Shown in pieces: positions 33,660 through 52,251 of a DNA stretch of 64,000 nucleotides; position 1 is the first letter of the stretch; every line of letters begins with the position of its first letter. Source of the DNA: Pseudomonas shahriarae (GTDB taxonomy: Bacteria > Pseudomonadota > Gammaproteobacteria > Pseudomonadales > Pseudomonadaceae); NCBI RefSeq assembly GCF_014268455.2, contig NZ_CP077085.1, positions 4,195,001 through 4,259,000 of the forward strand, in the 5' to 3' direction. Under the pieces are notes generated by a model. That model did no database searches and was not told the DNA's origin. It was given only the letters and a program-made list of their open reading frames with translations. Both the position numbers and the translations under genes were made by a program.

Positions 33660-34364
33660 TCACCACCGCACCCCGCCCATGAAATGTTCGTGAGTTTGCC
33701 GCACACGCTTCAACGCTTGAGCATGCAACTGTGAAATCCTCCCTTTCGAAAGCCCCATTAACTCACTGATCTCCGTGAAGCTCAAATGTTGATAGTAATG
33801 AGCAACGATAACCTGCTGCTCGCTGGGCGGCAGCTGTTTCACACACTCATTAAGGTGGTCATGGTTTTGCTCCACCTCATACACATTCAAAGGGTTACTG
33901 GCCTCAGGCTCATGATCAATGATGCCTGACTCCAAGAACAGTCCAAACGCCAATCCTATCGCTACGTTGGCAACGTGCTCCAGATCGCTCGCGCCCTCGT
34001 CCTCACTGCCAGACAGGCTCACAAGACGGTCCTGGTAAATTTTTCGACTATCGCGTACGTAACACGCCAAGCCTTTGAGTACGTTGCCTTTCACATAGGG
34101 TTCGGCATAGGCCTGAAAACGGGTCTTCAACGCCGGATTAAATCGGTCGATGGCTTGCAGCAAGCCGATAGACGCCAGATTCACGTAGTCGTGCCACTCG
34201 GCGAGTGGGTGGGGATATCGCACGTAAAGCAAGCGCGTAATCATGTGCAACCACTGCCCATAAAAGAAAAACAGATGGCTGCGGGCATCGCTGGATTTTC
34301 CGCTCAGCCAAGCCTGCCAGAGCGAAAGCTCATCGGTTTTGTAAGCATCTTTTCCCGGTTCCAT
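33660..34364 (-). CDS. Sigma-28/FliA-like sigma factor at the end of the flagellum-like operon
   Basis: This 234-residue sigma-70-family factor has region 2 visible as HDYVNLASIGLLQAIDRF then FQAYAEPYVKGNVLKGL, which corresponds to the FliA 'IGLLNAVERYD...' segment. Region 4 is LPPSEQQVIVAHYYQHLSFT then SELMGLSKGRISQLHAQALK, with a helix-turn-helix. A recognised region 3 is reduced. It is the last gene of the minus-strand cluster, 18 bases after fliP. FliA normally turns on filament and motor genes, yet none are in the window, so either its targets lie elsewhere or it serves another purpose. No anti-sigma FlgM is adjacent. Confidence 0.75.
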   Translation of the reverse strand: MEPGKDAYKTDELSLWQAWLSGKSSDARSHLFFFYGQWLHMITRLLYVRYPHPLAEWHDYVNLASIGLLQAIDRFNPALKTRFQAYAEPYVKGNVLKGLACYVRDSRKIYQDRLVSLSGSEDEGASDLEHVANVAIGLAFGLFLESGIIDHEPEASNPLNVYEVEQNHDHLNECVKQLPPSEQQVIVAHYYQHLSFTEISELMGLSKGRISQLHAQALKRVRQTHEHFMGGVRW

Positions 34365-34382
34365 GGAGTGGGTCGACTCTGG

Positions 34383-35105
34383 CTAGCCCAAACCACGCAT
34401 CAATGTCTGGGCGATCAATCCCCAACCATCGATGAGCAGGAACAACATGATTTTCAACGGCAGTGAAATGGTGATGGGGGGCACCATGATCATGCCCAGG
34501 GACATCAAGATAGAGGCCACAACCAGGTCTATGATCAAGAACGGAAGGAAAATCATGAAGCCAATCTGAAAGGCAACCTTCAACTCGCTAAGCATGAAGG
34601 CTGGCACCAATTTGACTGGAGAAAGGCCATCCGGGCTTGAGGGTAACGGCGCCTTGGCCAGTTCGTAGATCAGCCGCAGATCAGACTCATGGGTCTGACG
34701 GACCATAAAGTCACGGATCGGCACCCAGCCTTGCTGGGCGGCCCCCTCCAATCCGACCTTGCTGGCAAGAAACGGGCGAACGCCAGTGTCATAGGTTTTT
34801 TCCAAAGTAGGCGCCATGGCAAACAAGGTCAGAAACATCGACAACACAATCAACACGATATTCGGTGGCGTTTGCTGTAGGCCAAGCGCCTGGCGCGTCA
34901 GGGACAGCACCACAATATTTCGGGTGAAGGTGGTGAGGGCGATCACCATAAAAGGCACAAACGACAGTGCCGTCAGCAGCACCACAATGCTGACGGGCGA
35001 CTGGATCTGATTGATGTGCAGGCTGCCCCAGTCAGAGAAGTCATCGGCGGCAAATGCCGTCAGAGGCAGTAACCCCAGGAGCAAAAGCGCAAAGCCTTGG
35101 ATCAT
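34383..35105 (-). CDS. fliP: Export gate protein FliP
   Basis: This 240-residue inner-membrane component of the flagellar type III export gate has a cleavable signal (ending AFA) and four hydrophobic segments. The SFVPFMVIALTTFTRNIVVL motif after helix 1 and KVAFQIGFMIFLPFLIIDLV in the third are FliP/SctR signatures, with MVPPITISLPLKIMLFLLIDG at the end. I prefer ATG 35105, where the FliO stop overlaps (TGATG). The protein is complete, which argues that the export gate is functional. Confidence 0.93.
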   Translation of the reverse strand: MIQGFALLLLGLLPLTAFAADDFSDWGSLHINQIQSPVSIVVLLTALSFVPFMVIALTTFTRNIVVLSLTRQALGLQQTPPNIVLIVLSMFLTLFAMAPTLEKTYDTGVRPFLASKVGLEGAAQQGWVPIRDFMVRQTHESDLRLIYELAKAPLPSSPDGLSPVKLVPAFMLSELKVAFQIGFMIFLPFLIIDLVVASILMSLGMIMVPPITISLPLKIMLFLLIDGWGLIAQTLMRGLG

Positions 35106-35446
35106 CACGATTGAAGATCCGGAACAGGCGCAGAGGCAGATTGGCTGAGCACAGTCACCGTCGCCCCGTTGGATGATTCCGTGACCAATACCAGTGCCCC
35201 ATCCGCGCGCACCAGATAGACCTTGGTTTTGGTCGATAGCCTCAGTGCTCGAGTACAGTTCAACTCCGTAGTCGGAGCACTTGCACTACCAGTTGCCTGA
35301 CGCTTGGCGTACCAACGCATGACCAAGTACACAATGGCCAGCAGTAAAGCCGTGACCAATAGCACCTTGATCATTAGTACAAACGACACCGGGTCGTCCT
35401 GGCGAAGCGGCAAGCTCAAGGGCTGGGAAGTAATTTCCGTGGTCAC
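35105..35446 (-). CDS. fliO: FliO-like export gate assembly protein
   Basis: This 113-residue bitopic protein starts at a GTG overlapping the FliN stop (GTGA). A single hydrophobic helix (FVLMIKVLLVTALLLAIVYL) is followed by a basic patch RWYAKR and a cytoplasmic strand-rich domain (RALRLSTKTKVYLVRADG), the layout of FliO, which helps assemble FliP. FliO is specific to flagellar systems and is absent from virulence injectisomes, so its presence supports a flagellar origin of this cluster. Confidence 0.75.
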   Translation of the reverse strand: MTTEITSQPLSLPLRQDDPVSFVLMIKVLLVTALLLAIVYLVMRWYAKRQATGSASAPTTELNCTRALRLSTKTKVYLVRADGALVLVTESSNGATVTVLSQSASAPVPDLQS

Positions 35447-35748
35447 AGTATTTCCGTCAACTGAATGCCAAAGTTGTCGTCGACGGCAACCAAGTTGCCA
35501 CGCGCTACGGCCTTGCCATCTAGACACAGCGACGCGGGTTCGTGGACTTGCTGCAAGAGCTTGACGATGTCCCCGCTCTTGAGTGCAAACAGTTCGTCGA
35601 CACTCATCGACGCGTTGCCTAACTCAACCACCAGTTCCACGACCACATGCTTGATCAGGTTCATGTCCCGCTTGATCAGCGCCGGCATGCTTTCATTTGC
35701 GACGTTTTTTGCCTCTTCCAACTCGATTGAATCGACTGTAGCTGTCAC
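35443..35748 (-). CDS. fliN: FliN-like C-ring SpoA-domain protein
   Basis: This 101-residue protein starts at GTG 35748 and is made almost only of a SpoA domain: VVVELVVELGNASMSVDELF then LKSGDIVKLLQQVHEPASLC and the end VDDNFGIQLTEIL. In flagella FliN forms the lower C-ring and the FliH docking site. The protein has a short charged N-terminal region. It lies between fliO (GTGA overlap) and fliM (overlap region at 35748-35750). Confidence 0.87.
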   Translation of the reverse strand: MTATVDSIELEEAKNVANESMPALIKRDMNLIKHVVVELVVELGNASMSVDELFALKSGDIVKLLQQVHEPASLCLDGKAVARGNLVAVDDNFGIQLTEIL

Positions 35749-35749
35749 G

Positions 35750-36505
35750 CTAAAACTCCCTTGGCGATTGACCGGAAATCAGTTGTACGGCGAGATTATC
35801 CTGCTGCCGGGCGAGGTATCCCGACGCGACTACCCTTGTGCCGACCCGCAGTTGCAGGGTTTGGGAAAGCAGTGCCTGAGCGCGCAAGGTGTCCCCCGGG
35901 TGCAGGTCGTTCATCTCGCCAATGGACAGGCTGGCGAGTGGCAATTGCAGCGACAGCTTGACCTTGGCCTTGCCCAGGGCATTTTCACGCGGTAACAGCG
36001 GCGGCTTCACCTCGTGTGGTCCCAGCGCGCTGTTCAACAACGCAGCGTCCAGCACGATATAGACCCGAAAAGACTCAACGCTCACGCGCAGTAGAATGTC
36101 GGTACTCATCGGTTTGCCGAGTGCTCTTGCCGGTGCCGCCAGCAATTCTGCGGCTGGGGCCTGGCCGATTGACGCCAAGACACCATTAACCAGCGCTCGC
36201 TGGGCGCCCTGAAGCAAATAGTCCGCGGTTTCGCCTGCTGGCAACTCCTGGGCGAATGCGCCAAACACCAGTGCCGTCCAGTCGCCCGCCACGTACACCG
36301 CAGCACCTGCACTACCGGCCTTGAGCCACGTCAGAGGGTACACGCGCTCCTGATCAGCGGTATCAACACGCTCCAGGCACTCAATCTGCCAAGGTTTTCC
36401 CACCTGGCTGAAGCACCATTGCTCACGCCAGGCTTCCACCGCCGGTGGCAGTTTTTCTGAGGCTGCGTTCCAGCGGCTCTTGCCAATAAACCCCAACGCT
36501 CTCAT
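35750..36505 (-). CDS. fliM: Reduced FliM-like/SctQ-like SpoA protein
   Basis: This 251-residue protein lies in the fliM position. The C-terminal SpoA domain is clear (KVKLSLQLPLASLSIGEMND then LHPGDTLRAQ). The middle domain is diverged and there is no N-terminal EIDALL-like CheY-binding motif that ordinary FliM (about 320 residues) carries. It is more like T3SS SctQ proteins in size and layout. This implies a C-ring platform that is not steered by chemotaxis. It follows flgE with a 3-base gap. Confidence 0.7.
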   Translation of the reverse strand: MRALGFIGKSRWNAASEKLPPAVEAWREQWCFSQVGKPWQIECLERVDTADQERVYPLTWLKAGSAGAAVYVAGDWTALVFGAFAQELPAGETADYLLQGAQRALVNGVLASIGQAPAAELLAAPARALGKPMSTDILLRVSVESFRVYIVLDAALLNSALGPHEVKPPLLPRENALGKAKVKLSLQLPLASLSIGEMNDLHPGDTLRAQALLSQTLQLRVGTRVVASGYLARQQDNLAVQLISGQSPREF

Positions 36506-36508: not shown

Positions 36509-37687
36509 TTACCCACCCCGAGTGCCGTTGTAGAGTTGCTCCAGCATTTCGTTGGAGACCGTCATAACCCGGGAGCTGGCCTGATAACCGCGCTGAATGA
36601 TGAGGATGTCACCGAACTCCTGCGCTAAGTCGACATTGGACAACTCAAGGTAACCGCCTTGGATACGACCGAACTGAGCCTCACCTGCCCTGCCAAATTC
36701 GGCACGCAGGGTGGAGGGCGTCCTGTACTGCGAATTCGCGCCAGCAATCAGCGCTGTCTCGTCAGCAAAATCGGCCAGGGCCAACTGGCTCCCAGTGCGT
36801 TTTTCGCCGCTGGCATAGGTAAATTGCAGAACACCTTTCTCATCGAAGACGTAACTGCTCAGCCCCGCAACCGCACTGCCGTCTACCACACGAGCGCCCA
36901 AGGTGTGGCTCGGACCACTGGCCACCTGTGAGGTCAGGTTGAAACTGCCTGGCGTACCGAAATCCAGCTGAATGCTCTGGGCGGCGCCGTTGGCGGTCAG
37001 GGTGAAGTTCAGCGTATTGGAGCCTGCCACGGGACTGCCGTCAGGACCAAAGGCAATGGTGCCGCTTTGCAGCAATGCGCCGCTGGCATCTGAAACACTG
37101 ACTTTCCAACTGTTGGGCGGTGTGGTTTGCGGCTCAAACTTGACACTCAACGTGTGGCTGGCGCCTGTCGCGTCAAACACCTGGATAGAGTTGATCTGGT
37201 GGGTGGAATCCGTAGGGCCGCTACGCGCTAAGGCACCTATCATCTCGATGCGGGTGGTGGCCTTGGGTGGCAACGTCCGCTGGCCCTTGATATTGATGTC
37301 CCGCAAGTTACCCGCAGAGTCGATGCCTGCCACTTTCAATTGGGTCACGGTGTCCACCAGATACCCATCTTGGTCCACCTGGAACTGCCCGGCCCGCGTA
37401 TAAGACAGTTCGCCGCGTGCATCGCGCAACACGAAATAACCTGAACCGTTGACGGCAACGTTGGTGTTGTTACCAGTCTGACGATTTTCTCCGGCTTTGA
37501 TCCGCACCTCGGTACCGGCGATACCGGAGCCAAAGCTTTGTCCATTCTGGCCGTTGACGCTGCGGTAAAACGTGTCGCTACCGCGGTACCCAGGTGTGTT
37601 CATATTGGAAACGTTATTGGAAACGTTGTCCAAGCCCTTGGAAAAGGAAAACAGGCCACTCATTCCGTTATAGAAAGCTTGCAGCAT
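36509..37687 (-). CDS. flgE: Flagellar hook protein FlgE
   Basis: This 392-residue hook protein has the N-terminal rod/hook signature MLQAFYNGMSGLFSFSKGLD then NVSNNVSNMNTPGYRGSD and the C-terminal SNVDLAQEFGDILIIQRGYQ then ASSRVMTVSNEMLEQL, both coiled coils that pack in the axial core. A hook-body TRAGQFQVDQDG motif follows the N-terminal domain. ATG 37687 overlaps the FlgD stop (TGATG). The hook protein is full size, so an external hook-like filament is likely built even though no filament genes are here. Confidence 0.93.
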   Translation of the reverse strand: MLQAFYNGMSGLFSFSKGLDNVSNNVSNMNTPGYRGSDTFYRSVNGQNGQSFGSGIAGTEVRIKAGENRQTGNNTNVAVNGSGYFVLRDARGELSYTRAGQFQVDQDGYLVDTVTQLKVAGIDSAGNLRDINIKGQRTLPPKATTRIEMIGALARSGPTDSTHQINSIQVFDATGASHTLSVKFEPQTTPPNSWKVSVSDASGALLQSGTIAFGPDGSPVAGSNTLNFTLTANGAAQSIQLDFGTPGSFNLTSQVASGPSHTLGARVVDGSAVAGLSSYVFDEKGVLQFTYASGEKRTGSQLALADFADETALIAGANSQYRTPSTLRAEFGRAGEAQFGRIQGGYLELSNVDLAQEFGDILIIQRGYQASSRVMTVSNEMLEQLYNGTRGG

Positions 37688-38109
37688 CACGCCCCCTGCC
37701 TGACCAGTTTGATTTGCGAGAGACGCACGTCCGTAAGCACGGATCCGTCGGTTTTTTTGATAGAGAGCACTGGCCCAGTCGAAGAAAACGCAATGGCTGA
37801 TACCGAACCGATCACGCTACCTCCCGTGGTCATATTGATCTCCACCTGACGCCCCAGGAGCCCGAGAGACTGCGACGTCGCGCTCATCGACACCAAGTTG
37901 TTGGTGTTTTCATTGGTGACGCGGGTCTGCTCAAGGTTGGCGAACTGCGCCATCTGGGCCAAAAACTCACGGTTATTGATGGGTTCCAGGGGGTCTTGGA
38001 ACGTCAACTCGGTAAGGAACAACTTGATAAAGTCCTCCTGGCCCAAGCGGCTTTGCGCCAGCTCCGATGTGGTGGTACTCAGTTCGTTGCCGATCGCTTC
38101 AATGGCCAT
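37687..38109 (-). CDS. flgD: Hook-cap protein FlgD
   Basis: This 140-residue protein starts at ATG 38109, overlapping the FliK-like stop by 11 bases. The family core LGQEDFIKLFLTELTFQDPL then NNREFLAQMAQFANLEQ is intact at residues about 20-60. The C-terminal half is shorter than in the common 220-residue FlgD, keeping one SPOR-like or Ig-like strand set (SIKKTDGSVLTDVRLSQI). FlgD is the scaffold for hook assembly and is lost after completion. Confidence 0.88.
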   Translation of the reverse strand: MAIEAIGNELSTTTSELAQSRLGQEDFIKLFLTELTFQDPLEPINNREFLAQMAQFANLEQTRVTNENTNNLVSMSATSQSLGLLGRQVEINMTTGGSVIGSVSAIAFSSTGPVLSIKKTDGSVLTDVRLSQIKLVRQGA

Positions 38110-38830
38110 TGGAGTCGCCTGCTGAATGACGTGAGAGAGACGGGGCCTGCCACGCTGGCTGGCCATTGATCCAGATGCTTTCAGGGCGTACAGCCTGACG
38201 TGTCAGGTCTTGCACCAGGGCCCGCTGTTCCTCCGTGCCCAGGTGGTAGTCGCGAATGATCACTTCGATGCCCTTACCACGAGGCAAAACCTGTACATAA
38301 CGTTCTGGCCACTTTCTTATCAAGTAGGCTAGGGCCGGACTCGCGCCGGGCAATTCATGGCCGGCATCCGCCAAGTCATCGCTGGCAATGTGAATGGCTT
38401 TCTGCTCAAAGGCGCTGTTGTCGTCAAATGAGGGTAATGGCCTTTGAAGCGGGAGGCCCCCCCCGGTTTGATAGAACGCACGTTCGTTATCAGCCGCAGC
38501 AACCCCGCGTTCAACATGTGTCGTCTGCTCAAATAATTGCGGTACATACGAAAGATGTTTTCCAGCGCGAAGCCCGAGGCTAAAGAGCTCCAACACGCCC
38601 CTCTCGGGTGTTTTCAAACTCGACTGAAGCAGGCGCTGAATATTGAGCAAACCAGCCTCCTGAGCCAGATGATCATCGGTTGGCGGCAACAATTGATCCG
38701 CCTTTGCCAGCAACGGCTCAACCCCCGCTCTCTGCGCGAACGATTGCCCTTGAGGCTTATTGTCACGCAGCACTGGCGCTTGCGCGTCCGGCGGCGTAAC
38801 CCATAGCGACACCCCGACGTTAAGCCCCAT
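38099..38830 (-). CDS. FliK-slot protein, candidate hook-length/substrate-switch protein
   Basis: This 243-residue protein occupies the place between fliJ and flgD where fliK lies in many flagellar operons. It lacks the long Gln/Pro-rich central ruler of FliK. Its C-terminal third (RYVQVLPRGKGIEVIIRDYH then GTEEQRALVQDL and WINGQPAW) is compact, as a substrate-switch domain would be, but I cannot match it to FliK with confidence. It starts at ATG 38830, overlapping the FliJ stop. If it is the ruler, the predicted hook would be short. Confidence 0.55.
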   Translation of the reverse strand: MGLNVGVSLWVTPPDAQAPVLRDNKPQGQSFAQRAGVEPLLAKADQLLPPTDDHLAQEAGLLNIQRLLQSSLKTPERGVLELFSLGLRAGKHLSYVPQLFEQTTHVERGVAAADNERAFYQTGGGLPLQRPLPSFDDNSAFEQKAIHIASDDLADAGHELPGASPALAYLIRKWPERYVQVLPRGKGIEVIIRDYHLGTEEQRALVQDLTRQAVRPESIWINGQPAWQAPSLSRHSAGDSNGH

Positions 38831-39281
38831 GAATCGCCCCTCGCGCCTGCTGCGCGTCAAAGATATCGATGGATTCCTGATCCCTCTGGTAGCACTGCAG
38901 GTCATGCAATGCTGTGTTGAAGGCCTTTTGCGTCACCTGCACCTCAAGCGTGCGGCGCCCCAACAGCGTCCTGCATGCGCTTTCCTCGTCCTGTACCTCA
39001 CCCAAGGCCAGTACCCGAGACTTCAACGCAGCAAAACTCTGCGATTGGGCCAGTAGACGCTGCTCGTATTGCGACGGGTCCAACGCCACGCCTACGCGAC
39101 CTTGCTGCTCAAACGACGATTGGAGTTGCGCATACCGCTGGTGCTCTTCCTCCAGCAGACGTTCGGCGGTGCGCACACCGCGTAAACAGGCAGCGTGACT
39201 CAATGCAGCTTTTTCCCGTTGCAATGCTCGCAAGCGGGCCGCGGCCGCCAGTTGCCGGAGCTTGCGCTGTTCATCCTGCAT
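38820..39281 (-). CDS. fliJ: FliJ/SctO-like coiled-coil stalk protein
   Basis: This 153-residue, almost wholly helical protein is rich in Q, E, R, A and L, with the coiled-coil pattern of FliJ (e.g. LRALQREKAALSHAA, RTAERLLEEEHQRYAQLQ). In flagellar and injectisome machines this protein sits in the centre of the ATPase ring. It overlaps FliI by 11 bases at its start and the FliK-slot gene by 11 bases at its stop. The assignment rests on position and coiled-coil nature, since sequence is poorly conserved in this family. Confidence 0.7.
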   Translation of the reverse strand: MQDEQRKLRQLAAAARLRALQREKAALSHAACLRGVRTAERLLEEEHQRYAQLQSSFEQQGRVGVALDPSQYEQRLLAQSQSFAALKSRVLALGEVQDEESACRTLLGRRTLEVQVTQKAFNTALHDLQCYQRDQESIDIFDAQQARGAIHGA

Positions 39282-40617
39282 GGGCGGCTCCTGCGGTCAG
39301 TTGTTGCGACAACCGCCGCACGGTCTTCCAGGCGTCAGCCGTCGGTACATGTTCGTTCGAGCGTTGTTTGAGCAGTTCATCGAACTGTGGTTTAAGCGTG
39401 ATCATGCTATCCAGCAATGGGCTGGTGCCCTTCTCATAGGCTCCCAACTCAATCAGGTCCGCGCTGCTCTGGTAAGCACCCATCCCCGCACGAAGATGAT
39501 CGATCTGGGCTTTTTGCTCGTCGCTGCGCAACGCATTGGCAAGGCGGCTGACACTGTGCAACACATCGATCGCAGGCCAATGACCCCGCGCGGCGATGGT
39601 CCGGCTCAGGACGATGTGCCCGTCGAGAATGGCGCGCATATGATCCGCTACCGGCTCATTCATATCGTCACCTTCCACCAGGACGGTATAAACGCCGGTG
39701 ATCGAGCCTTGATCATTGAGGCCGCCGGCACGCTCCATTAACGGTGGCAGGAGAGCAAACACCGAAGGGGTGTAGCCCCGGCTGCCCATTGGCTCCCCGG
39801 TGGACAAACCAATTTCACGCTGCGCCAGGGCAAAACGGGTGATCGAATCCATGATCAACAGCACATGCTGACCCTGGGCACGAAACCACTCAGCGATGGT
39901 GGTCGCAGTGTAGGCCGCCTGGCGTCGCAGCACCGCAGGTTGCTCAGCCGCAGCGGCGATGACTACGGCCCTTTTCAAGCCCTCGGGGCCCAGGCTTTCA
40001 CGAATGAAATCGCCGACTTCCCGGCCGCGCTCACCGATCAGGGCAATGACAATCACATCAGCGTCCGCGTACTGACTCATCATCCCCAGCAGTGTGCTTT
40101 TGCCCACGCCGCTGCCCGCAAAAATCCCCACGCGCTGCCCACGCCCCAATGGCATAAATACGTCAACGGCCTTCACGCCGGTGACCAGTACCTGGCTGAT
40201 AGGTGAGCGATGCAACGGATTGATGGGGGCAACAAAACGCGGCATCAGCACCAGATCCGATGGCACAGGTTTATCGTCCAAAGGCTGGCAAGTGGCGTCC
40301 AGCACACGACCCAATAGTCCCTGCCCCACTGGCACCCGATAAGCCTCACCACGGGCAATCACCTCACTGGCCAGGCACAACCCGTCTACCGGACCATAAG
40401 GCATGAGCAATACGCACTCACGGCGCAAACCGACCACTTCGGCGACGAGCGCGTCGCCCCCAGCCGCCGGAACAATGTCCACTAATTCGCCCAATTTCAC
40501 ATCCAGCCCGGTCGCCTGCAGTATCAGGCCCTGGATTGAAATCAAACGTCCCATGCGCCGACACAGCTTCGCCCGTGCCAACTCTGCTATCCGCTGATCT
40601 TCATACACCTGCCACAT
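39271..40617 (-). CDS. fliI: Export ATPase FliI
   Basis: This 448-residue hexameric ATPase energises export. The Walker A motif GIFAGSGVGKSTLLGM is complete, as are Walker B LLIMDSITRFALAQREIGL and the conserved STGEPMGSRGYTPSVFALLP arm. I prefer ATG 40617 because the GGGGG tract lies 6 bases upstream; ATG 40623 would be too close to it. Its start overlaps the FliH stop. The protein is full length, so the apparatus should be capable of active secretion. Confidence 0.94.
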   Translation of the reverse strand: MWQVYEDQRIAELARAKLCRRMGRLISIQGLILQATGLDVKLGELVDIVPAAGGDALVAEVVGLRRECVLLMPYGPVDGLCLASEVIARGEAYRVPVGQGLLGRVLDATCQPLDDKPVPSDLVLMPRFVAPINPLHRSPISQVLVTGVKAVDVFMPLGRGQRVGIFAGSGVGKSTLLGMMSQYADADVIVIALIGERGREVGDFIRESLGPEGLKRAVVIAAAAEQPAVLRRQAAYTATTIAEWFRAQGQHVLLIMDSITRFALAQREIGLSTGEPMGSRGYTPSVFALLPPLMERAGGLNDQGSITGVYTVLVEGDDMNEPVADHMRAILDGHIVLSRTIAARGHWPAIDVLHSVSRLANALRSDEQKAQIDHLRAGMGAYQSSADLIELGAYEKGTSPLLDSMITLKPQFDELLKQRSNEHVPTADAWKTVRRLSQQLTAGAAHAG

Positions 40618-41323: not shown

Positions 41324-41759
41324 CCTGGCCTCCTGAGCGCGCCATATACTCTCGCAGGCTGCTGGCCAGTGCGGGCGGCATTGTGTGCTTTGCGAAAGCC
41401 GTGTCCCAACGTCTTATCGACGCACTGTTGGCCAATGTGCTCAACGCTTCACGCCGTTGCACGGGCGTTTCCAACTGCAAGACTAAGCCGGCCCAGAATG
41501 GGTGGCCGGCCTTGAGCAACCGTTCGTGGATAATATGGCTATGAGCACTTGCCTGGACCTGAGGCTGTGCCGCCAGTTCATTGATCAACCCAGCCATCAC
41601 CGACGGTTCGCTGGCCAGGCCCAATTCGTTGATTTCGCCCAACAACGCATCCATTTTTCGGCGTTCATCAGCGGCTAAATTGGCCAGGATCCATTTACGA
41701 TCATCAGCGTGCAGACAGGCCAGGCGGATCGCAGCCTTGCGCAGTGGCGAAAATTCCAT
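41313..41759 (-). CDS. 148-residue protein in place of FliG
   Basis: In canonical operons fliF-fliG-fliH follow each other and FliG is about 330 residues with a C-terminal torque domain. Here this slot holds a 148-residue helical protein starting LRKAAIRLACLHADDRKWIL, which faintly resembles the FliG N-terminal domain that binds FliF. No torque domain or charged motor residues can be found in the rest (ELAAQPQVQASAHSHIIHER...). I infer an adapter between FliF and the SpoA ring rather than a rotor protein. It starts 4 bases after FliF ends and overlaps fliH by 11. Confidence 0.6.
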   Translation of the reverse strand: MEFSPLRKAAIRLACLHADDRKWILANLAADERRKMDALLGEINELGLASEPSVMAGLINELAAQPQVQASAHSHIIHERLLKAGHPFWAGLVLQLETPVQRREALSTLANSASIRRWDTAFAKHTMPPALASSLREYMARSGGQDER

Positions 41760-43451: not shown

Positions 43452-43452
43452 G

Positions 43453-44228: not shown

Positions 44229-44237
44229 CACCGCTCC

Positions 44238-45347
44238 TTATTGAACAATCAGTTCGGCGTGCAAGGCGCCGGCTTGTTTGATGGCTTGCAACACGGTGAT
44301 CACTTCACGGGTATTCAGACGCACCTTATTGAGTGCCTGCACCAGATCGCCAACCGTAGCGCCTTCTGCCAGCTTGACCGGGCCATGTTGCTCCTCGGTC
44401 ACATTCAGCTCGGTGTCCGGCACCACGACCGTGCCCACACTCGGCCCGGTACGACCAATCCAGGACGGCTGGGACACCTGGTACTTGGTGCTGATCACCA
44501 CACTGAGTGAGCCCTGGGAAATACTCACCTCACCCAAGCGCACATGCGCGCCCGCCACGACCGTGCCAGTGCGCTCGTTGACCACCACGCGCGCGGCATA
44601 GTCAGGCGCAACGGATACGTTCTCGATGCGGGAAATCAATCGGGGCAAACCTGCCGCACTGCTCAGCGGAACTTCAACCTTCGCCGCATGCACGACTCGC
44701 ACGCCGGGCAATCCCAGCTCACGTGTCAATGCATCGGCAATACGTTGCGCAGTGGTGTAGTCAGGCTCGTTGAGTACCAGTACCAGATTGCGCGCAGAGG
44801 CGTCACTTTCGGTAAAAGCCGAGCGTTCAACGCTGGCTCCTCGGGGAATGCGGCCTACCGTGGGGTGGTTTTTCTGCACCGAGTTTTGGTTGGCTTCAAA
44901 GACATATCCCCCCACCGACATCGGGCCCTGGGCCAGGGCGTAGAGTTTTTCATCGGGCCCATACAACGGCGTCATCAGCAAGGTGCCACCCAACAAGCTG
45001 CGCGCATCGCCCAGGGAAGAAACCTCGACATCCACCTTGTCACCCGTCTCACTGAATGAACGCAGGTTGCCGGTGACCATCACCGCCGCCGTGTTGCGCG
45101 CATTGAGATCCGAGTCCGCCACGTTCACATTGAAATTTTTCAGGGTATTGACCAGCGACTGGCGCGTGGCACGGTTGCGGTCGGTATCCCCCGTACCGGC
45201 CAGTCCTACCACGAGGCCGTAGCCAATAATTGCGTAATCACGCACGCCCTGGATGCGTGTCAGTTCCTTGATCCTTACATCGGCCCATCCCGCAGGCAGC
45301 CAAAGGCTGAGCAACAGACCCAAAAACCCCATCGTCAGCTGTTTCAT
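44238..45347 (-). CDS. flgI: P-ring protein FlgI
   Basis: This 369-residue periplasmic ring protein starts at ATG 45347 (ATGA overlap with the FlgH stop). A signal peptide ends GWA; then come the FlgI motifs KELTRIQGVRDYAIIGYGLV, VGLAGTGDTDRNRATRQSL, NTAAVMVTGNLRSFSETGDK, and GTLLMTPLYGPDEKLYALAQ. The complete P ring implies that the structure crosses the peptidoglycan layer. Confidence 0.94.
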   Translation of the reverse strand: MKQLTMGFLGLLLSLWLPAGWADVRIKELTRIQGVRDYAIIGYGLVVGLAGTGDTDRNRATRQSLVNTLKNFNVNVADSDLNARNTAAVMVTGNLRSFSETGDKVDVEVSSLGDARSLLGGTLLMTPLYGPDEKLYALAQGPMSVGGYVFEANQNSVQKNHPTVGRIPRGASVERSAFTESDASARNLVLVLNEPDYTTAQRIADALTRELGLPGVRVVHAAKVEVPLSSAAGLPRLISRIENVSVAPDYAARVVVNERTGTVVAGAHVRLGEVSISQGSLSVVISTKYQVSQPSWIGRTGPSVGTVVVPDTELNVTEEQHGPVKLAEGATVGDLVQALNKVRLNTREVITVLQAIKQAGALHAELIVQ

Positions 45348-45913
45348 AGGATTCGCAACCACTTGAGGGTTCGGAAAACGATGCTTTGCTTCTGCGCGTC
45401 GGTGATCACCCCATCACCAACAATGTCGATTTGTGCATCGGCCAGGCGGTATGACAACACGGTGTTGTTGTAGGCAATATCATCGGGGCGCACCAAACCA
45501 CTGATACGCACCTGCTGCTTCTCGTCATTGACAGTCACCAATTGCTCACCGCTGACCCGCAGCAAGCCTTCGGGCAGTTGGTCAATGATTCGCACCGACA
45601 CATTAGTGCGGATCTGCCCGCTACGATTGGTCTGGCCTTTGCCGCTGGAGTCGCCTTGCAGGCCGAGGCGGCCTTGATGGTTGTTGTTGTCCCATCCCAG
45701 GCGCGCAGAAATATCGGTACTACTATCGGCCCCTGTCCCGGCTGCGCTTTGCGCCGAGGTCGATTCCACCACCAGAATCGTCAGGGTGTCCCCCACGTGG
45801 TAGCCACGGCGGTCGCCAGTGAGAGAGCGATAGCCATCGGGATTGATCAGGCTTTGCGCGCTGGCGCAAATCGGTAGCAGCACAACCAGCCAAAACGCCT
45901 TAGCGTTGAACAT
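45344..45913 (-). CDS. flgH: L-ring protein FlgH, atypical lipobox
   Basis: This 189-residue outer-membrane ring protein is recognised by DRRGYHVGDTLTILVVESTS, SAQSAAGTGADSSTDISARL and the C-terminal YRLADAQIDIVGDGVITDAQ. It starts at ATG 45913, overlapping FlgA by 14 bases. The family is normally a lipoprotein with a consensus L-x-G-C. Here the only cysteine is in LPICASAQ, where Ile precedes Cys, so lipidation is doubtful and a type I cleavage at ASA is possible. The protein is shorter than E. coli FlgH (about 230). Confidence 0.9.
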   Translation of the reverse strand: MFNAKAFWLVVLLPICASAQSLINPDGYRSLTGDRRGYHVGDTLTILVVESTSAQSAAGTGADSSTDISARLGWDNNNHQGRLGLQGDSSGKGQTNRSGQIRTNVSVRIIDQLPEGLLRVSGEQLVTVNDEKQQVRISGLVRPDDIAYNNTVLSYRLADAQIDIVGDGVITDAQKQSIVFRTLKWLRIL

Positions 45914-46598
45914 GGACTTCCCCTTTGCCGGCCACCACTGCCAACAGGCTCGACTCCGCACCGTTGACCAACACGGGGATAGGCTCACCCAGCACGCCGG
46001 GGCGCATCGCCTTGCCCTCGGTGCGCAGCATCAGGCCTGGGCCATAGACCACGACAGTGACGGTGGCATCACGTAGCACCAGCGGTTCGGCTTTCAAGTG
46101 CCGATTGAGAATCGGCATGCCGGCGTTGACCATTTGCCCCAACCACGCCCCCTCCAGGTTGCTGGCCAAATCGTCGGGGGATACTTGCGCGGCAACCACG
46201 TCCAGACGCTCACGGCGTGGCTGGGTATCGCTCAGTGCCTGATCCGTGCGCCCATTGCGGCCATAAACCCAGGCCTGACCCCACGCCTGGACCTTGAACC
46301 AAACTGTCACTTGGCTGGCATGCGTCTGCCCGCATACCGTGCCTTTAAGTTCAACCGCAACGCGGCTGCGCAGGGACGTCGACAACAACCGCACCCGGGG
46401 CGATGCCATGGCCGGCAAGCCACCGATAGGCGTCAGTTGGATATCCAGTTGCTCGTTGGCGAATGCCGGGCGCACGCGCTCAGTGATGTACTGTGCCATC
46501 TGGCTGGGCGTTTGCCCTGTTGCACACTCAAGCGCGTTTGCCTGCCCTCCCCAAAGGCAGACGGCTGCGATAGCGACGCACGTAATCTTCATACTCAT
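45900..46598 (-). CDS. flgA: P-ring assembly chaperone FlgA
   Basis: This 232-residue periplasmic protein has a signal peptide ending ANA. The N-terminal domain is diverged; the C-terminal SAF domain has ERLDVVAAQVSPDDLASNLE, ILNRHLKAEPLVLRDATVTV and VLGEPIPVLV, as in FlgA. Its job is to help FlgI assemble. The ATG at 46598 overlaps the flgG stop (TGATG); 46592 is an alternative. Confidence 0.82.
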   Translation of the reverse strand: MSMKITCVAIAAVCLWGGQANALECATGQTPSQMAQYITERVRPAFANEQLDIQLTPIGGLPAMASPRVRLLSTSLRSRVAVELKGTVCGQTHASQVTVWFKVQAWGQAWVYGRNGRTDQALSDTQPRRERLDVVAAQVSPDDLASNLEGAWLGQMVNAGMPILNRHLKAEPLVLRDATVTVVVYGPGLMLRTEGKAMRPGVLGEPIPVLVNGAESSLLAVVAGKGEVHVQR

Positions 46599-47371
46599 CA
46601 GCGACGCAGGTTATTGATGGTTTCTAGTATCTGATCGCCGGCTTGAAGCAAGCGCGCGTTCATTTGGTAGGCACGTTGCGCCAGTACCAGGCTACTCATC
46701 TCATCAATCAGGTTGACGTTGGACATCTCGACATACCCCTGCAACAGCACGCCTTGGCCATCCCGGCCGGGTTCGGCGTAGATCGCTTCACCGCTGGTTT
46801 GAGAAGGTCGGTACAGACCATCGCTGAGCTTTTTCAGTCCATCGGCACTGGCAAACTTCGCCAGCTGTACTTGGCCGACGGTAATCACCTCTCCCGTCTC
46901 GACAACGGTCGCCTGCACCGAACCGTCTTGTTTGATCACCAGGTTGCGCGCATCAGGCGGCACTCGAAGGTCCGCTGTCAGGACTTGGCCGGTGTTCATC
47001 GCCAACTGTCCGTCAGTGTTCAAATGAAAGCGACCGGCACGGCTATAGGCCAATTCACCCGTTGGCAATTCGACTTCAAAAAAACCATCGCCCTGGATGG
47101 CCAGATCCAACTCGTTACCGGTCTGGCGCACTGCGCCCGGACTGAACACCTGAGTGGGCTCCGACGCCTGGATGCCTGCACCGGACAGCAGGTTTTCGGT
47201 CATGCCGCCGCCGTCATCCCGCGTGCCAACGTCACGCACCATGTCATGGAAATTGACCTGGCTACGCTTGTAGCCAATCGTCTGCATATTGGCCACGTTA
47301 TTGGAAATACTGTCGATCCAGGCCTGGTTCGCGGATAAGCCGGAACTGGCAATACTCAATGCATCAATCAC
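46598..47371 (-). CDS. flgG: Distal rod protein FlgG
   Basis: This 257-residue distal rod protein has the N-terminal IASSGLSANQAWIDSISNNV then ANMQTIGYKRSQVNF and the C-terminal EMSNVNLIDEMSSLVLAQRA plus YQMNARLLQAGDQILETINN signatures. The length is that of canonical FlgG, suggesting the rod spans the whole periplasm. Confidence 0.94.
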   Translation of the reverse strand: MIDALSIASSGLSANQAWIDSISNNVANMQTIGYKRSQVNFHDMVRDVGTRDDGGGMTENLLSGAGIQASEPTQVFSPGAVRQTGNELDLAIQGDGFFEVELPTGELAYSRAGRFHLNTDGQLAMNTGQVLTADLRVPPDARNLVIKQDGSVQATVVETGEVITVGQVQLAKFASADGLKKLSDGLYRPSQTSGEAIYAEPGRDGQGVLLQGYVEMSNVNLIDEMSSLVLAQRAYQMNARLLQAGDQILETINNLRR

Positions 47372-47386: not shown

Positions 47387-48097
47387 TCAGTCCTTGCCCA
47401 ATTGATTGATCCCGCTGTTCAGCAAACCGTCGTAGGCCGACAAGGCGCGCTGCAGGGTCTCGACGTGTCGCGATACTTCCATCATCTTCACCATGTCTGT
47501 GCCCATGGCGGCGTTGGAGCGCTCTAAAAGACCCTGGTGCACCACGTATTGCGTGGCAGGTTGCCAGGCGACGTCCATCGAATAGAGCCCGGCCCCACGG
47601 GAAACCAGATCGCTGGCCCGTTCAATACGTACCAGACTGAGTTGCCCTACCGGGGTGTCGTCCACGCTCACTTCACCCAGGCTGCTCACCTTCACCACAC
47701 CGCCGGCGACCTGAATGGGACCGCCCTGGCCGAGCACAGGATGGCCGGCATGGCTAACAAGGAAGCCCTGATTGTCGACCTGGAAACGTCCATCTCGGGT
47801 CAGCGCCGCGCCTTGTGGGGTGTTCACGGCAAACCAAGCATCGCCGGACAGCGCGAAATCTGTCACGCGCCCGGTGTACTGCAGCGCACCGCCATCGGTA
47901 TTGATCGATGTCTGGGTTTGCAGGCCATCAAGCCCGACGGCTACGCCAGAGGCGGGTTGCCCCAATGCCTGGACGCTGAACGCGCGCCCGGCCTTGTAGC
48001 CGGTGGTGTTGGCATTGGCGACGTTCTGCGATACCTCCTTCAAGGTATCGATATCCCGCTGGATCACCCCGGCCAGTTGCATGATCATGTCGCTCAT
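47387..48097 (-). CDS. flgF: Proximal rod protein FlgF
   Basis: This 236-residue rod protein starts at ATG 48097 (ATGA overlap with the FlhA stop). The N-terminal helix DIDTLKEVSQNVANANTTGY and C-terminal ERSNAAMGTDMVKMMEVSRH then VETLQRALSAYDGLLNSGIN are FlgF-like, with SRDGRFQVDNQGFL-like core strand (LTRDGRFQVDNQGFLV). It is placed next to flhA rather than next to flgE, an unusual gene order. Confidence 0.9.
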   Translation of the reverse strand: MSDMIMQLAGVIQRDIDTLKEVSQNVANANTTGYKAGRAFSVQALGQPASGVAVGLDGLQTQTSINTDGGALQYTGRVTDFALSGDAWFAVNTPQGAALTRDGRFQVDNQGFLVSHAGHPVLGQGGPIQVAGGVVKVSSLGEVSVDDTPVGQLSLVRIERASDLVSRGAGLYSMDVAWQPATQYVVHQGLLERSNAAMGTDMVKMMEVSRHVETLQRALSAYDGLLNSGINQLGKD

Positions 48098-50175
48098 GCC
48101 GACTCCAGACTGGGGAACCCAGGCAAATCAATCATTCCGGCGGATGTCACGCGAGCATGCTGACCGACTTCGCTGACCGACAGCACAGCCATATGCGGCA
48201 CCGCCCGTGACATGAATGCGCGCAATACCCGCCTTAATGGCGCGGCACACAACAATACTGGCTGCTTGTTATCACCCAACTGACGCTCCGCTTCACGGGC
48301 CACAGTGGTGACGAACCGTTCCAATTCCTGAGCCGGCAGCAATGCGCTTTGCTGGCCCTCACGCGGTCGGGATGCGGCAAGCATGTAGCCTTCCAGTTGA
48401 GGGGCGATGGTCAACACGTTGAGATCACCGTTTTTGTCCACCAGGCGCTCATACAGCGCAGCACCCAGCCGTTCACGTACACGCTCTGCCAGGTCTTCCG
48501 CGTTTTTGTTAGTCCGCCCAGCATCCACCAGCACCTCAAGGATGGTTTCCAGGTTGCGCACCGGCACTTGTTCACGCAGGAGCAATTGCAAGACGCGCTG
48601 AATATCGGAATAACTGAGGACTTGGGGGATCAGCTCATCCACCAGGCTACCCAACGCGGCACGCTTGCTTTCCACCAGACGCTCGGTCTCTGCGCGGGTG
48701 AGAAAATCAGGGGCGTAGCGTCGGGCAAGTTCGGAGAGGTGTGTCAACAGCACTGTGTCCGGCTCAACCAGCGTATAGCCGCTCATTCGTGCCTGGTTGC
48801 GTAACGCTTGGTCTATCCAAAGGGCCTGGAGGCCATAAGTAGGCTCCTTGGTTTCGCGCCCTTCCAGCGCCGCCGCCGCACCACCTGGGTTGATGGCCAG
48901 CAACTTGTCGAACTCCAACTCACCGTTGGCCACCACCGCGCCCTGGACACAGACCTGATAGGTGCCTGGCAGCAGTTTCTTCTCCGCGTGCACACTCAGT
49001 TGCGGCAGGGCAAAACCGTAATCCCGGGCGAACTGTTTGCGAAGGTTGTCGATACGCAAGCTGAGGGTACTGGTGGCCGCCAAAACCTGTGCCGCCAAGT
49101 CATTGCTCAGGCGCAGTTCAAACGCATCGCTGCTCATCAGCGCGTAGATATCATCCGAGGCAGTATCGGCCTGGGTTTGCGTCCCCTCTGACGCCGATTC
49201 GCCCTTGGCCTTACGCTGCAACTGGCGGAATGAATAGCCAGCCGCTACGGCAAACGCCAGAAACAGCATCAGCAACGGCACCAATGGCAGGCCCGGCATC
49301 ATCGCTAGCAACAGCGTGACGATCGCCACCACCACCAGTGTCTTGGGGTAGGCCGAGACCTGTCGACCCAGTTCCGGCCCCAGGCGTGCGTCGGTAGCGG
49401 CGCGGGTAATGATGATGCCGGCGGCCACCGCGATGATGAGCGATGGAATCTGCGTGACGATACCGTCACCGACCGTCAACAGAGTGTAGTGGTGCAGTGC
49501 ATCGCCCCAACTCTGTCCCTTTTGCAAAATGCCTACCGACAGGCCGCCAATGATGTTGATCGCAATGATGACAATCCCGGCGATCGCATCGCCCTTTACG
49601 AACTTAGATGCGCCATCCATTGCGCCGTAGAAATTTGACTCGCGCTCCAACTGGCCGCGGCGCCGCTTGGCCTCATCCTGGTCGATGATGCCCATGTTCA
49701 GGTCGGCATCGATGCTCATCTGTTTGCCTGGCAGCGAGTCGAGAGTAAAGCGCGCGGCCACCTCCGCGACCCGTTGTGCGCCACTGGTGACCACCACGTA
49801 TTGCACCACCACCAGAATCAGGAACACCACGAAGCCGATCACGTAATTGCCACCGACCACGTGGGTACCGATCGCGGCAATAACCTGGCCGGCATCACCG
49901 TCCGCGAGAATCAGCCGCGTCGCAGAGATGTTCAGTGCTAGACGAAACAAGGTGGTCATCAGTAGTAGCGAAGGGAATGTTGAGAAGCTCAAGGGCTTGT
50001 CGATGTCGAAGGTCACCAGCAACACCAACAGTGCGACAGCGAAGTTGGTCAGCAGCAACAGGTCGAGCAACCAGGTAGGAATCGGTGTGAACAGCACCAG
50101 CAAAATGCCAATGATGGCGACTGCTAACAGCAGGTCGCTGCTTTCCGACAGTGCGCGCGTCCAGAATGGCTTCAT
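48094..50175 (-). CDS. flhA: Export gate ring protein FlhA
   Basis: This 693-residue protein is the largest export-gate component. Eight or so transmembrane helices occupy residues 15-320, including the FHIPEP stretch DADLNMGIIDQDEAKRRRGQ then LERESNFYGAMDGASKFVKG, which is diagnostic. The cytosolic C-terminal half has the usual four subdomains (e.g. VLQLLLREQVPVRNLETILE). The ATG at 50175 overlaps the FlhB stop. Full length. Confidence 0.95.
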   Translation of the reverse strand: MKPFWTRALSESSDLLLAVAIIGILLVLFTPIPTWLLDLLLLTNFAVALLVLLVTFDIDKPLSFSTFPSLLLMTTLFRLALNISATRLILADGDAGQVIAAIGTHVVGGNYVIGFVVFLILVVVQYVVVTSGAQRVAEVAARFTLDSLPGKQMSIDADLNMGIIDQDEAKRRRGQLERESNFYGAMDGASKFVKGDAIAGIVIIAINIIGGLSVGILQKGQSWGDALHHYTLLTVGDGIVTQIPSLIIAVAAGIIITRAATDARLGPELGRQVSAYPKTLVVVAIVTLLLAMMPGLPLVPLLMLFLAFAVAAGYSFRQLQRKAKGESASEGTQTQADTASDDIYALMSSDAFELRLSNDLAAQVLAATSTLSLRIDNLRKQFARDYGFALPQLSVHAEKKLLPGTYQVCVQGAVVANGELEFDKLLAINPGGAAAALEGRETKEPTYGLQALWIDQALRNQARMSGYTLVEPDTVLLTHLSELARRYAPDFLTRAETERLVESKRAALGSLVDELIPQVLSYSDIQRVLQLLLREQVPVRNLETILEVLVDAGRTNKNAEDLAERVRERLGAALYERLVDKNGDLNVLTIAPQLEGYMLAASRPREGQQSALLPAQELERFVTTVAREAERQLGDNKQPVLLCAAPLRRVLRAFMSRAVPHMAVLSVSEVGQHARVTSAGMIDLPGFPSLESA

Positions 50176-51245
50176 GGGCTCAGCACCTTATTGCCCGACA
50201 GAGCAATAACCCAGCGATAGACGCGTGCGACATCGGTCTGTGTGATATCCGGAATCGCTGAATCGACCCGCGCCAGTGCGTGCAGGGTACGCGCCAACGG
50301 CGGACGGCGCAGGATTGGCACCTGGTGCTTGCGTGCCATCTGGCAGATACGCTGGGCATGAAAGCCACGTCCGATAGCCAGCACCTTGGGCGCAAGCATC
50401 GTTGCCGGACGGTATTGCAGGGCCACGGCGTAGTGGGTTGGGTTGGTGATGATGACATCAGCATCTTTGACTTGCCCCAGTGCGGACGCTTTTTTCAGCA
50501 GGTCCTGCTGGATGCCTTTACGCTTGGAGCGAACCTCGGGATCACCTTCGCGGCGCTTGTGTTCATCCTTGGTCTCGCGCTTGCTCATGCGCATTTGCCG
50601 GCCAAATTCGCGACGCGAATACCACACATCAAACAGCGCGGCAGCCGCCATGATCGACAACACGGTAAAACCCAATTGCATCAGCAATTGCTTGCCGGCC
50701 AGGGGCAGTTCCATAGGAGAGACCGTCGCCATGCCCAACAGGCGCGGCAAAAGACTTTGGAATAGGTAATACAGCACCAGCGCAAACAGCCCACCCTTGA
50801 CCAGTACCTTGAGCAACTCAACAAACATACGCCGCGAGAAAATGCGCTTGAGACCCTGGATGGGGTTAAGCCGCTTGAAGTCAGGCTTGATTGCGAAGGC
50901 CGAAAACACCGGCCCGCTGAACAACAGATTGGCCAAGACGGCCACCAACACCAAGGCACCGATCAGTGGCAGAAAGGCATACACCACCTGTCTCACGCTG
51001 TAGCCGCCCTGCTCGCCCAGATAGCCAAAGCTGGTCCCCAGTTGTCCTGCGTTGGCTAACCACCAATGGGTGTGGGCAGCGATCACACTGGCAAGCGGCG
51101 CGGCGATGGCCGAGAACACCATCAGGAACGTCAGGATCATGGCGAACGACAACAGGTCCGGGCTGCGCGGCACCTGGCCTTTCTTGCGCGCCTCCTCGAG
51201 TTTGTAGGGGGTAGCCTCTTCACTCTTGTCCTGTTGATCGCTCAT
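50172..51245 (-). CDS. flhB: Export gate switch protein FlhB
   Basis: This 357-residue protein starts at ATG 51245. The N-terminal SDQQDKSEEATPYKLEEARK is the FlhB signature, then four transmembrane helices, then the cytosolic domain with the autocleavage NPTH in DADVIITNPTHYAVALQYRP. Cleavage there allows switching from hook to later substrates; its retention suggests that substrate switching still occurs, although no late substrate is encoded nearby. Confidence 0.95.
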   Translation of the reverse strand: MSDQQDKSEEATPYKLEEARKKGQVPRSPDLLSFAMILTFLMVFSAIAAPLASVIAAHTHWWLANAGQLGTSFGYLGEQGGYSVRQVVYAFLPLIGALVLVAVLANLLFSGPVFSAFAIKPDFKRLNPIQGLKRIFSRRMFVELLKVLVKGGLFALVLYYLFQSLLPRLLGMATVSPMELPLAGKQLLMQLGFTVLSIMAAAALFDVWYSRREFGRQMRMSKRETKDEHKRREGDPEVRSKRKGIQQDLLKKASALGQVKDADVIITNPTHYAVALQYRPATMLAPKVLAIGRGFHAQRICQMARKHQVPILRRPPLARTLHALARVDSAIPDITQTDVARVYRWVIALSGNKVLSP

Positions 51246-51985
51246 GGTACACCTGCCAGGGAAAGCGCGAATCGCAACGCGTTTTCGATCAACAGCGGCA
51301 CGCGCTGAACAATGATCGGCAGTGTCAGGATCAGGATAAATACGCCGACGCCGAGTTTGATCGGCAACGAAAGGAAATAGACATTGGCCTGCGGCATCGA
51401 GCGAGAGAGCAGCGCAAAGGCAGTGTCGATCAACCACAGCCCAAGGATAACGGGCACAACGATCATGAACGCCAACAGAAATTGCTGGATCAGAATGCCT
51501 ATGATCGGCCCCGAGAAAGTCATCAGAGAAACACTGCCGGGAGGTACCGCGACCAGTAGCAGACTGAAGACGCGCAGCAAGTCGTGATGCAGGTTCAACG
51601 TGACGAACAGGATACCCAAAGTCCAGACCAGCACTTCAGCGACCAGGCCGGTCATATTGGAAGTGCCCGGGTCGAACACCCCGGCGGCATTCAGGCCGAT
51701 CTGGGTGTCGATGAGCTTACCTGCCATGTCCAGGCCGGCATGGGCTGCATGAAAACCGAAGGCCATCAACGCCCCCAGCATTAACTCGCCGAGTACCGAC
51801 GATAGGCTCAATGCAGGCATGCCAGTCACATTCAAAGAACTGGCCAGGACGGCCGATAAGACCAATCCCAGCAACACCCGAACGGTCATGGGCAATCGCG
51901 AGAAAAATACAATAGGGGCGACAACAAGCAGCGGCGCCAGCCTCATGAAGATGAGGAGCAGATTGGCCATGTAGGGCGTCAACAC
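51242..51985 (-). CDS. fliR: Export gate protein FliR
   Basis: This protein of about 247 residues has five to six hydrophobic helices: LLLIFMRLAPLLVVAPIVFF, RLPMTVRVLLGLVLSAVLAS, and the later QQFLLAFMIVVPVILGLWL. The D-T-A-F-A-L-L-S-R-S-M-P-Q-A-N-V-Y-F loop is FliR-like. The best start is GTG 51985, two bases after the FliQ stop; ATG 51970 is the alternative. Confidence 0.92.
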   Translation of the reverse strand: MLTPYMANLLLIFMRLAPLLVVAPIVFFSRLPMTVRVLLGLVLSAVLASSLNVTGMPALSLSSVLGELMLGALMAFGFHAAHAGLDMAGKLIDTQIGLNAAGVFDPGTSNMTGLVAEVLVWTLGILFVTLNLHHDLLRVFSLLLVAVPPGSVSLMTFSGPIIGILIQQFLLAFMIVVPVILGLWLIDTAFALLSRSMPQANVYFLSLPIKLGVGVFILILTLPIIVQRVPLLIENALRFALSLAGVP

Positions 51986-51987
51986 GG

Positions 51988-52251
51988 CTAGAAACCAGCA
52001 GCCTGAGTGAGTGCACTCAGCGCAAACTGCTTGAGGATCGTCAGCATCCAACCGCCCAAAACCAACAGCATCACGACGGTGATGATCAGTTTAGGGATGA
52101 ACGTGAGGGTCATTTCCTGGATCTGCGTGGCCACCTGAAGAATGCTGACCAACAGGCCGATGATCAGGATCGCCAATAGCAAAGGGGCGGCAACCAGGGC
52201 TGCAGTGAGCAGCGCTTCCTTGAGCGCGTACAGCATGAAATCCTGTGTCAT
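51988..52251 (-). CDS. fliQ: Export gate protein FliQ, first gene of the operon
   Basis: This 87-residue protein of two transmembrane helices starts at ATG 52251 with MTQDFMLYALKEALLTAALV, a typical FliQ N-terminus. It has the LLVSILQVATQIQEMTLTFI then PKLIITVVMLLVL core. Being first, its upstream region (52252-52613) should hold the promoter of the long operon that ends at the sigma factor. Confidence 0.93.
   Translation of the reverse strand: MTQDFMLYALKEALLTAALVAAPLLLAILIIGLLVSILQVATQIQEMTLTFIPKLIITVVMLLVLGGWMLTILKQFALSALTQAAGF

Follow-up and report, generated by a model that had tools for sequence, protein, structure and literature searches.

The window analysed here is a 64,000-nucleotide stretch (G000:C1:4195001-4259000) of the 6.05-Mb single-contig genome of Pseudomonas shahriarae (G000, the window genome). 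It carries a cluster of 25 flagellum-type genes and, near it, part of a gene for a giant Rhs polymorphic toxin. There is good support for the cluster encoding a hook-basal body that has neither filament nor motor and is specialised for secretion: its genes are conserved as a set and evolve under purifying selection, one carrier genome (G668) has no other FlhA, and neither a filament gene, nor a FliG_C domain, nor a second locus linked to the cluster was found beside it. With somewhat more confidence than doubt, we propose that this machine is a dedicated secretion system derived from the flagellum, whose late cargo would be the giant Rhs toxin in place of flagellin. If this is correct, the evolution of a flagellum into a dedicated secretion system has happened separately from that of the injectisome, and in free-living bacteria most of which also possess a normal flagellum. 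Giant leader-bearing Rhs proteins, with no domain of the type VI secretion system (T6SS) in the part scanned, would gain a plausible exporter. Loss of the motor by a flagellar machine would become testable, with the adaptor half of FliG retained and the torque half gone.

Gene content and conservation of the cluster

The 25 minus-strand open reading frames (ORFs) are contiguous from 33660 to 52272. With the longest ORFs taken, 16 of the 24 junctions overlap, in agreement with the sequence-only reading, which had described 25 mostly overlapping genes. The longest fliQ ORF begins at 52272, and an MTQDF start lies at 52251. From the promoter side, the order is fliQ, fliR, flhB, flhA, flgF, flgG, flgA, flgH, flgI, flgB, flgC, fliE, fliF, X, fliH, fliI, fliJ, fliK, flgD, flgE, fliM, fliN, fliO, fliP, and the sigma factor gene, where X is the ORF between fliF and fliH, that is, in the fliG slot. 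The same reading had listed a complete export gate, ATPase, MS ring, rod, rings, and hook. Family matches were obtained for these parts, except that FliO and FlgB scored under curated cut-offs and FliJ was assigned by position only (Table 1). FliF matched the NCBIfam fliF model over its cut-off (194.2 bits) and the SctJ model under its cut-off (61.6 bits).

FliG had been reported as absent, which was not borne out: X is a truncated FliG of 148 aa (FliG-short), in which the adaptor (N and M) regions are retained and the torque domain is gone. The profile that finds FliG-short also finds canonical FliG ORFs in other genomes. The C-ring is reduced, as had been stated; in the 251-aa FliM, only the C-terminal FliMN_C was recognised. 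The NCBIfam models of FliM and SctQ were equally weak on this protein, and PDB profile matches (FliM, FliN, and SctQ) fell at the C domain only.

No match to flagellin, FliD, FlgK, FlgL, FlgJ, stator, or chemotaxis families was found among the 25 ORFs (Pfam), and the earlier statement that FliC, FliD, FlgK, FlgL, FlgJ, MotA/B, and chemotaxis genes are missing from the cluster held. No secretin or translocon was found among the 25 ORFs; FlgI and FlgH are present. The MotA/MotB stator was sought among these ORFs and not in the remaining genome. A second fliG and fliC, raised as a possibility earlier, do exist at a distance. FliG_C gave a single match in the window genome, at 1.871 Mb, and Flagellin_N two genes, at 1.856 and 1.859 Mb, all about 2.4 Mb away and unlinked; stators and FlgM were not part of this genome-wide search. 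Besides that of the cluster, two FlhA-family genes are present in the window genome, one at 1.885 Mb and the other at 1.175 Mb. The latter (G000:C1:1175288-1177231, L006) is the most divergent in the FlhA tree and probably belongs to an injectisome.

Twenty-four clusters were read: that of the window, 10 found through X, and 13 found with FliF alone. The ten come from Pseudomonas sp. SJZ074, Pseudomonas sp. GM48, P. japonica, a Moraxellaceae metagenome-assembled genome, P. uvaldensis, Solimicrobium silvestre, and the genomes G060, G624, G668, and G704. In the FliF-only search of Solimicrobium's family, 14 of 145 genomes (Solimicrobium included) matched at 411-713 bits, all other matches being at or below 284 bits. 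FliG-short is present in 24 of 24 clusters, including all 13 found by FliF alone, and a canonical-FliG match in 0 of 24. The run fliF-X-fliH-fliI occurs in 23 clusters, fliH not being called in the remaining one. The genes found follow the window's order in 22, the exceptions being a rearranged cluster (L148) and one with a small extra FlhB-like ORF called (L028). Several stretches end at contig ends or at the 20-kb limit, where uncalled fliQ, fliR, or sigma factor genes are not losses. Purifying selection was indicated by an omega of 0.04-0.27 in 18 of 21 gene comparisons (three were not computable), and the FlhB NP-T/A motif and the FliI P-loop are conserved.

In the FlhA tree, 11 clusters are separated from 7 primary flagella by a fully supported branch; the outgroup was one SctV, and long branches were flagged. 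The sole FlhA-family gene of G668 (97% complete, 1% contaminated) is that of the cluster. G892, G918, G864, and G869, genomes whose completeness is not given, have only cluster-type FliF at E <= 1e-60. The other searched cluster-bearing genomes have a second FlhA. One FliG_C, away from the cluster, was found in each of seven genomes searched (the window genome and the six named carriers). Order-wide surveys for G668 (41 genomes) and G704 (24 genomes) returned, apart from the seeds themselves, nothing but weak matches, all to ORFs of 337-360 aa; the four that were read are canonical FliG. The conserved gene set, the purifying selection, and G668 favour the secretion organelle suggested by the sequence-only reading, with the correction that FliG is truncated rather than lost.

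Two further features were noticed in individual clusters. Small extra ORFs between flhA and flgF (L140, 3609-3896; L150, 3120-3410) resemble a second FlhB C-terminal domain. In G857, a chemosensory-looking operon (L155, 8530-17191; CheA-, MCP-, CheR-, CheD-, and CheB-like by eye) adjoins the cluster and its tetratricopeptide repeat (TPR) gene.

The Rhs toxin as candidate cargo

The whole Rhs gene encodes 3680 aa (length from coordinates) and runs past the window to G000:C1:4261243. Most of it, together with the TPR genes, lies at or beyond the window edge, and this likely cargo had been missed before. The N-terminal 1081 aa contain RHS/YD repeats (PF05593, 247.8 bits) and gave no match to PAAR or another T6SS domain; the C-terminus carries an LHH nuclease (37.6 bits, over cut-off). 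The Rhs proteins beside other clusters share with it a leader of about 73 residues, and the DUF6531 region does not include the first ~38 of these. The toxin ends of this leader family vary, with LHH in the window, TNT in GM48, and also a scabin-related ADP-ribosyltransferase or TNT-related end (source naming). A PADLOC scan of five proteins, Rhs or immunity, gave no relevant match.

Leader and cluster occur together. Of 398 Pseudomonas genomes, 5 have X; the full leader was found in exactly these 5 and in 0 of the other 393 (P 1.2e-11, before any kinship correction). In a class-wide sample of 369 genomes, X was found in 4, and the same 4 match the leader strongly, at 78-125 bits across positions 1-73. 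For 13 of the 24 clusters (G000, GM48, P. japonica, G060, P. uvaldensis, Solimicrobium, G704, G668, G624, G848, G890, G892, and G933), a giant Rhs or the leader is encoded no farther than 20 kb away, in G704 as a leader fragment at a contig edge; several of the 11 clusters without a linked Rhs end at contig ends. The pairing recurs in deeply diverged clusters, with Rhs at either cluster end. In G624, a second leader-bearing Rhs is encoded on another contig.

Related sequences were also seen elsewhere. A Pseudomonas genome without the cluster (G337, L058) has a short Rhs fragment that matches leader positions 39-73 only, the first 38 being absent. Giant YD-type proteins with a related N-terminal motif lie beside leucine-rich-repeat-like ORFs (L083-L089, L092, L093), in genomes of 1.0-2.3 Mb that mostly have no FlhA-type gate.

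A TPR protein (~390 aa or ~190 aa) is encoded in the fetched flanks of 16 of the 24 clusters, TPR matches being promiscuous and weaker than the other evidence. In the window genome, the TPR genes lie beyond Rhs, outside the window. A small protein of 118-141 aa (S2) is encoded near 10 of the 24; no credible PDB relative of it was found, the best match, ribosomal S20 (E 0.16), being taken as chance. A sigma28-like motif (T-A/T-AAC, 16 bases, R-V-AT-R) precedes 9 of 12 Rhs genes by no more than 200 nt and lies farther out in Solimicrobium. It was found at 0 of 7 fliQ genes and in 0-1.7% of shuffled sequences. A narrower form, scanned over the 12 loci, gave 7 sites, 6 upstream of Rhs and 1 inside Rhs coding sequence. 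The spacing of the motif equals that of the sigma28 consensus. The fliQ upstream regions of P. uvaldensis, GM48, and SJZ074 (L042, L046, L049) contain a TGGC...GCCA inverted repeat and a conserved GTAACAT-CTGTTGC-like block; these differ from the Rhs motif and are a possible early-gene control site.

The following mechanism is proposed. The cluster would build a hook-basal body across both membranes, with FliG-short as the adaptor joining the FliF MS ring to the reduced C-ring. This C-ring would dock cargo and could take no torque, so that the machine would be non-rotating and without a filament. The FliA-like sigma factor would switch on late genes once, as in a flagellum, the late gene being Rhs instead of flagellin. 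In the Rhs protein, a conserved leader at the N-terminus is combined with an exchangeable toxin domain at the C-terminus. TPR proteins, perhaps with the small partner protein, may hold Rhs unfolded or bring it to the FlhA gate. Rhs would then exit through the hook, fold outside, and act on competing bacteria, and the immunity protein would guard the producer cell. We regard it as an even question whether this amounts to a new antibacterial type III secretion class, in which giant Rhs is exported by a non-rotating hook-basal body that has TPR chaperones, a sigma28-type late switch of its own, and FliG reduced to an adaptor, the assembly checkpoint having become a weapon-loading checkpoint.

Several points weigh against Rhs as the cargo of this machine. 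FliJ and FliK are unrecognisable by family (Pfam and NCBIfam). In 7 of the 369 class genomes, all without X, giant proteins matched the leader more weakly (22-43 bits) and for the most part only over a portion of it, and 6 of these 7 have no FlhA-type gate at all; these relatives argue against exclusivity of the leader to this exporter. No Rhs was found in the long fetched flanks of G857, G869, G927, and G888, where unlinked copies were not searched. The leader-cluster co-occurrence can be explained by joint transfer of a linked block. The upstream motif was derived from these same sequences, and the sigma28 consensus itself, applied as a prior test, gave P < 0.05 in only 2 of 12 Rhs genes. 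For a substrate, the length of Rhs (about 3700-4300 aa) would be unusual. What was observed is the parts, their conservation, the truncated FliG, the co-occurrence of leader and cluster, and the upstream motif; the export of Rhs by the cluster machine, the role of the TPR proteins, control by the sigma factor, and the target are inferred.

Alternative readings and genomic context

The closest alternative, which we hold to be possible and clearly less probable than Rhs export, is that the machine, a flagellum-derived organelle for secretion or at the cell surface, carries other cargo, and that the leader-bearing Rhs is exported otherwise and only shares genomic islands with it. The six gateless genomes with weaker leader relatives fit this explanation, as do the four long-flank clusters that have TPR genes yet no adjacent Rhs, and genes like those of an integrative and conjugative element (ICE) beside the window cluster could move a linked block together. 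However, the match in Pseudomonas is exact (5/5 versus 0/393), the pairing is repeated in deeply diverged clusters with Rhs at either end, and the second leader-bearing Rhs of G624 is on a separate contig.

An injectisome-like device delivering effectors, Rhs or others, into eukaryotes (fungi, protists, or plants) is unlikely. A reduced C-ring without torque parts would resemble an injectisome sorting platform, and several carrier species of the cluster come from soil or plants. Against this stand the lack of a secretin or translocon among the 25 ORFs and, at the toxin itself, a C-terminal nuclease and a putative immunity gene, which point to bacterial targets.

It is very improbable that the cluster is a second flagellum that draws its FliG, stator, and flagellin from the primary one. 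The single FliG_C away from the cluster in each of the seven genomes favours such borrowing, but the slot is already filled by a FliG homologue, and G892, G918, G864, and G869 have no second FliF at the threshold given above; FliG-short and G668, which has no other FlhA, disfavour it. A decaying remnant of a lost second flagellum, although motor and filament genes are missing, was rejected as scarcely credible on the intact ORFs, the purifying selection, the conserved FlhB and FliI motifs, and the same gene set in far-diverged clusters.

The features assigned to the proposed Rhs secretion system within the window are collected in Table 1. Around them, the stretch 19752-29099 contains a tRNA-Asn followed by an ICE-like ParA-type ATPase, DnaB helicase, DUF2857, phage-type integrase, and TraI_2 relaxase/helicase. 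GC drops there from ~0.62 to 0.52, and the flagellar cluster begins ~4.5 kb beyond. A direct repeat of the tRNA-Asn was considered as the island end and rejected, no 14-18 nt copy being found in the window or in the 20 kb fetched beyond it. Between the SUKH-like gene and fliQ, at 52614-54556, lie four small low-GC ORFs, one with TPR-like matches, whose appearance suggests stored immunity genes or orphan genes belonging to the Rhs region.

Table 1. Features of the flagellum-type cluster and the Rhs region (window coordinates)
Feature	Coordinates	Strand	Evidence
FliA/WhiG-like sigma factor (sigma28 type, divergent)	33660..34364	-	Pfam Sigma70_r4 54.6 bits; NCBIfam FliA_WhiG 85.7 bits, under cut-off 189.6
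FliP, export gate	34383..35108	-	Pfam PF00813 239.7 bits
FliO, export gate	35105..35527	-	Pfam E 0.0021 and NCBIfam 25.7 bits, both under cut-off; position
FliN, C-ring	35443..35748	-	Pfam FliMN_C 68 bits
FliM, short (251 aa)	35750..36505	-	Pfam FliMN_C at 176-243, sole recognised domain
FlgE, hook	36509..37690	-	Pfam Flg_bbr_C, FlgE_D2
FlgD, hook cap	37687..38166	-	Pfam FlgD 60.5 bits
FliK-position protein	38099..38905	-	No Pfam/NCBIfam family match; position alone
FliJ-position protein	38820..39281	-	No Pfam/NCBIfam family match; position alone
FliI, ATPase	39271..40623	-	Pfam ATP-synt_ab 288.8 bits and T3SS_ATPase_C; P-loop GSGVGKS retained
FliH	40601..41323	-	Pfam FliH 29.4 bits
FliG-short, truncated FliG (148 aa)	41313..41759	-	N and M regions without torque domain; in fliG slot
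FliF, MS ring	41763..43142	-	Pfam YscJ_FliF 181.4 bits; NCBIfam fliF 194.2 bits, over cut-off; C-terminal Trp retained
FliE	43146..43469	-	Pfam FliE 71.6 bits
FlgC, rod	43453..43848	-	NCBIfam FlgC 73.6 bits, under cut-off; Pfam Flg_bbr_C
FlgB, rod	43851..44231	-	NCBIfam FlgB 28.7 bits, under cut-off; position
FlgI, P ring	44238..45362	-	Pfam FlgI 384.6 bits
FlgH, L ring	45344..45988	-	Pfam FlgH 147.2 bits
FlgA, P-ring chaperone	45900..46598	-	Pfam ChapFlgA 48.4 bits
FlgG, distal rod	46598..47371	-	Pfam LlgE_F_G_D1, Flg_bbr_C
FlgF, rod	47387..48097	-	Pfam
FlhA, export gate	48094..50175	-	Pfam FHIPEP 782.8 bits
FlhB, export gate and substrate switch	50172..51437	-	Pfam Bac_export_2 335.6 bits; NPTH motif present
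FliR, export gate	51242..52051	-	Pfam Bac_export_1 137.1 bits
FliQ, export gate	51988..52272	-	Pfam Bac_export_3 82.2 bits
Putative immunity protein of Rhs (SUKH-like)	54744..55193	-	Pfam SMI1_KNR4 E 5.7e-4, 20.9 bits, under cut-off; directly downstream of Rhs
Giant Rhs/YD-repeat polymorphic toxin, C-terminal part, proposed cargo	55201..64000	-	RHS_repeat; LHH nuclease

Comparison with known systems

Such a system was not described in the open-licence literature searched, subscription papers and preprints being mostly outside its scope. The cluster shares with the bacterial flagellum the export gate, MS ring, rod, P and L rings, and hook. It differs in having no FliG torque C domain, no locus-encoded flagellin, and no MotA/MotB among the 25 ORFs. 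T6SS-delivered and surface Rhs toxins consist of a YD-repeat shell and an exchangeable C-terminal toxin, accompanied by an immunity gene (in part after PMC10433427). The window Rhs shares the YD repeats and the toxin end with them, but differs in its leader and in its pairing with a flagellum-type exporter.

According to PMC10433427, the Myxococcus type III secretion system (T3SS*) is likewise an incomplete antibacterial type III system, kept within its group, with homologues of TPR-type (LcrH) chaperones. It is built of injectisome-type Sct parts without an outer-membrane component or needle, and its effectors are given there as unknown, whereas the cluster has P ring, L ring, rod, and hook. 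The second flagellum of Pseudomonas fluorescens F113 is also a second flagellar set, located on a genetic island in a few Pseudomonas strains; it differs by the flagellin fliC2, flhDC control, and a visible flagellar tuft (PMC5031763). Enterobacterial flag-2 is a secondary flagellar locus with cargo genes, one strain having Rhs and immunity cargo. However, the flagellin LafA is among its conserved proteins, and its Rhs lies by VgrG and is assigned to the T6SS (PMC6993521).

The hook-basal bodies of Buchnera keep the basal body, rod, hook, and export gate and have lost flagellin and motA/motB, and secretion has been proposed for them (PMC8109811). By the same source, Buchnera retains a FliG of ~38 kDa, and its structure is the reduced endosymbiont relic of its only flagellum. 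Toxin cargo is not described in the consulted passages of PMC8109811, whereas the cluster reported here is paired with Rhs.

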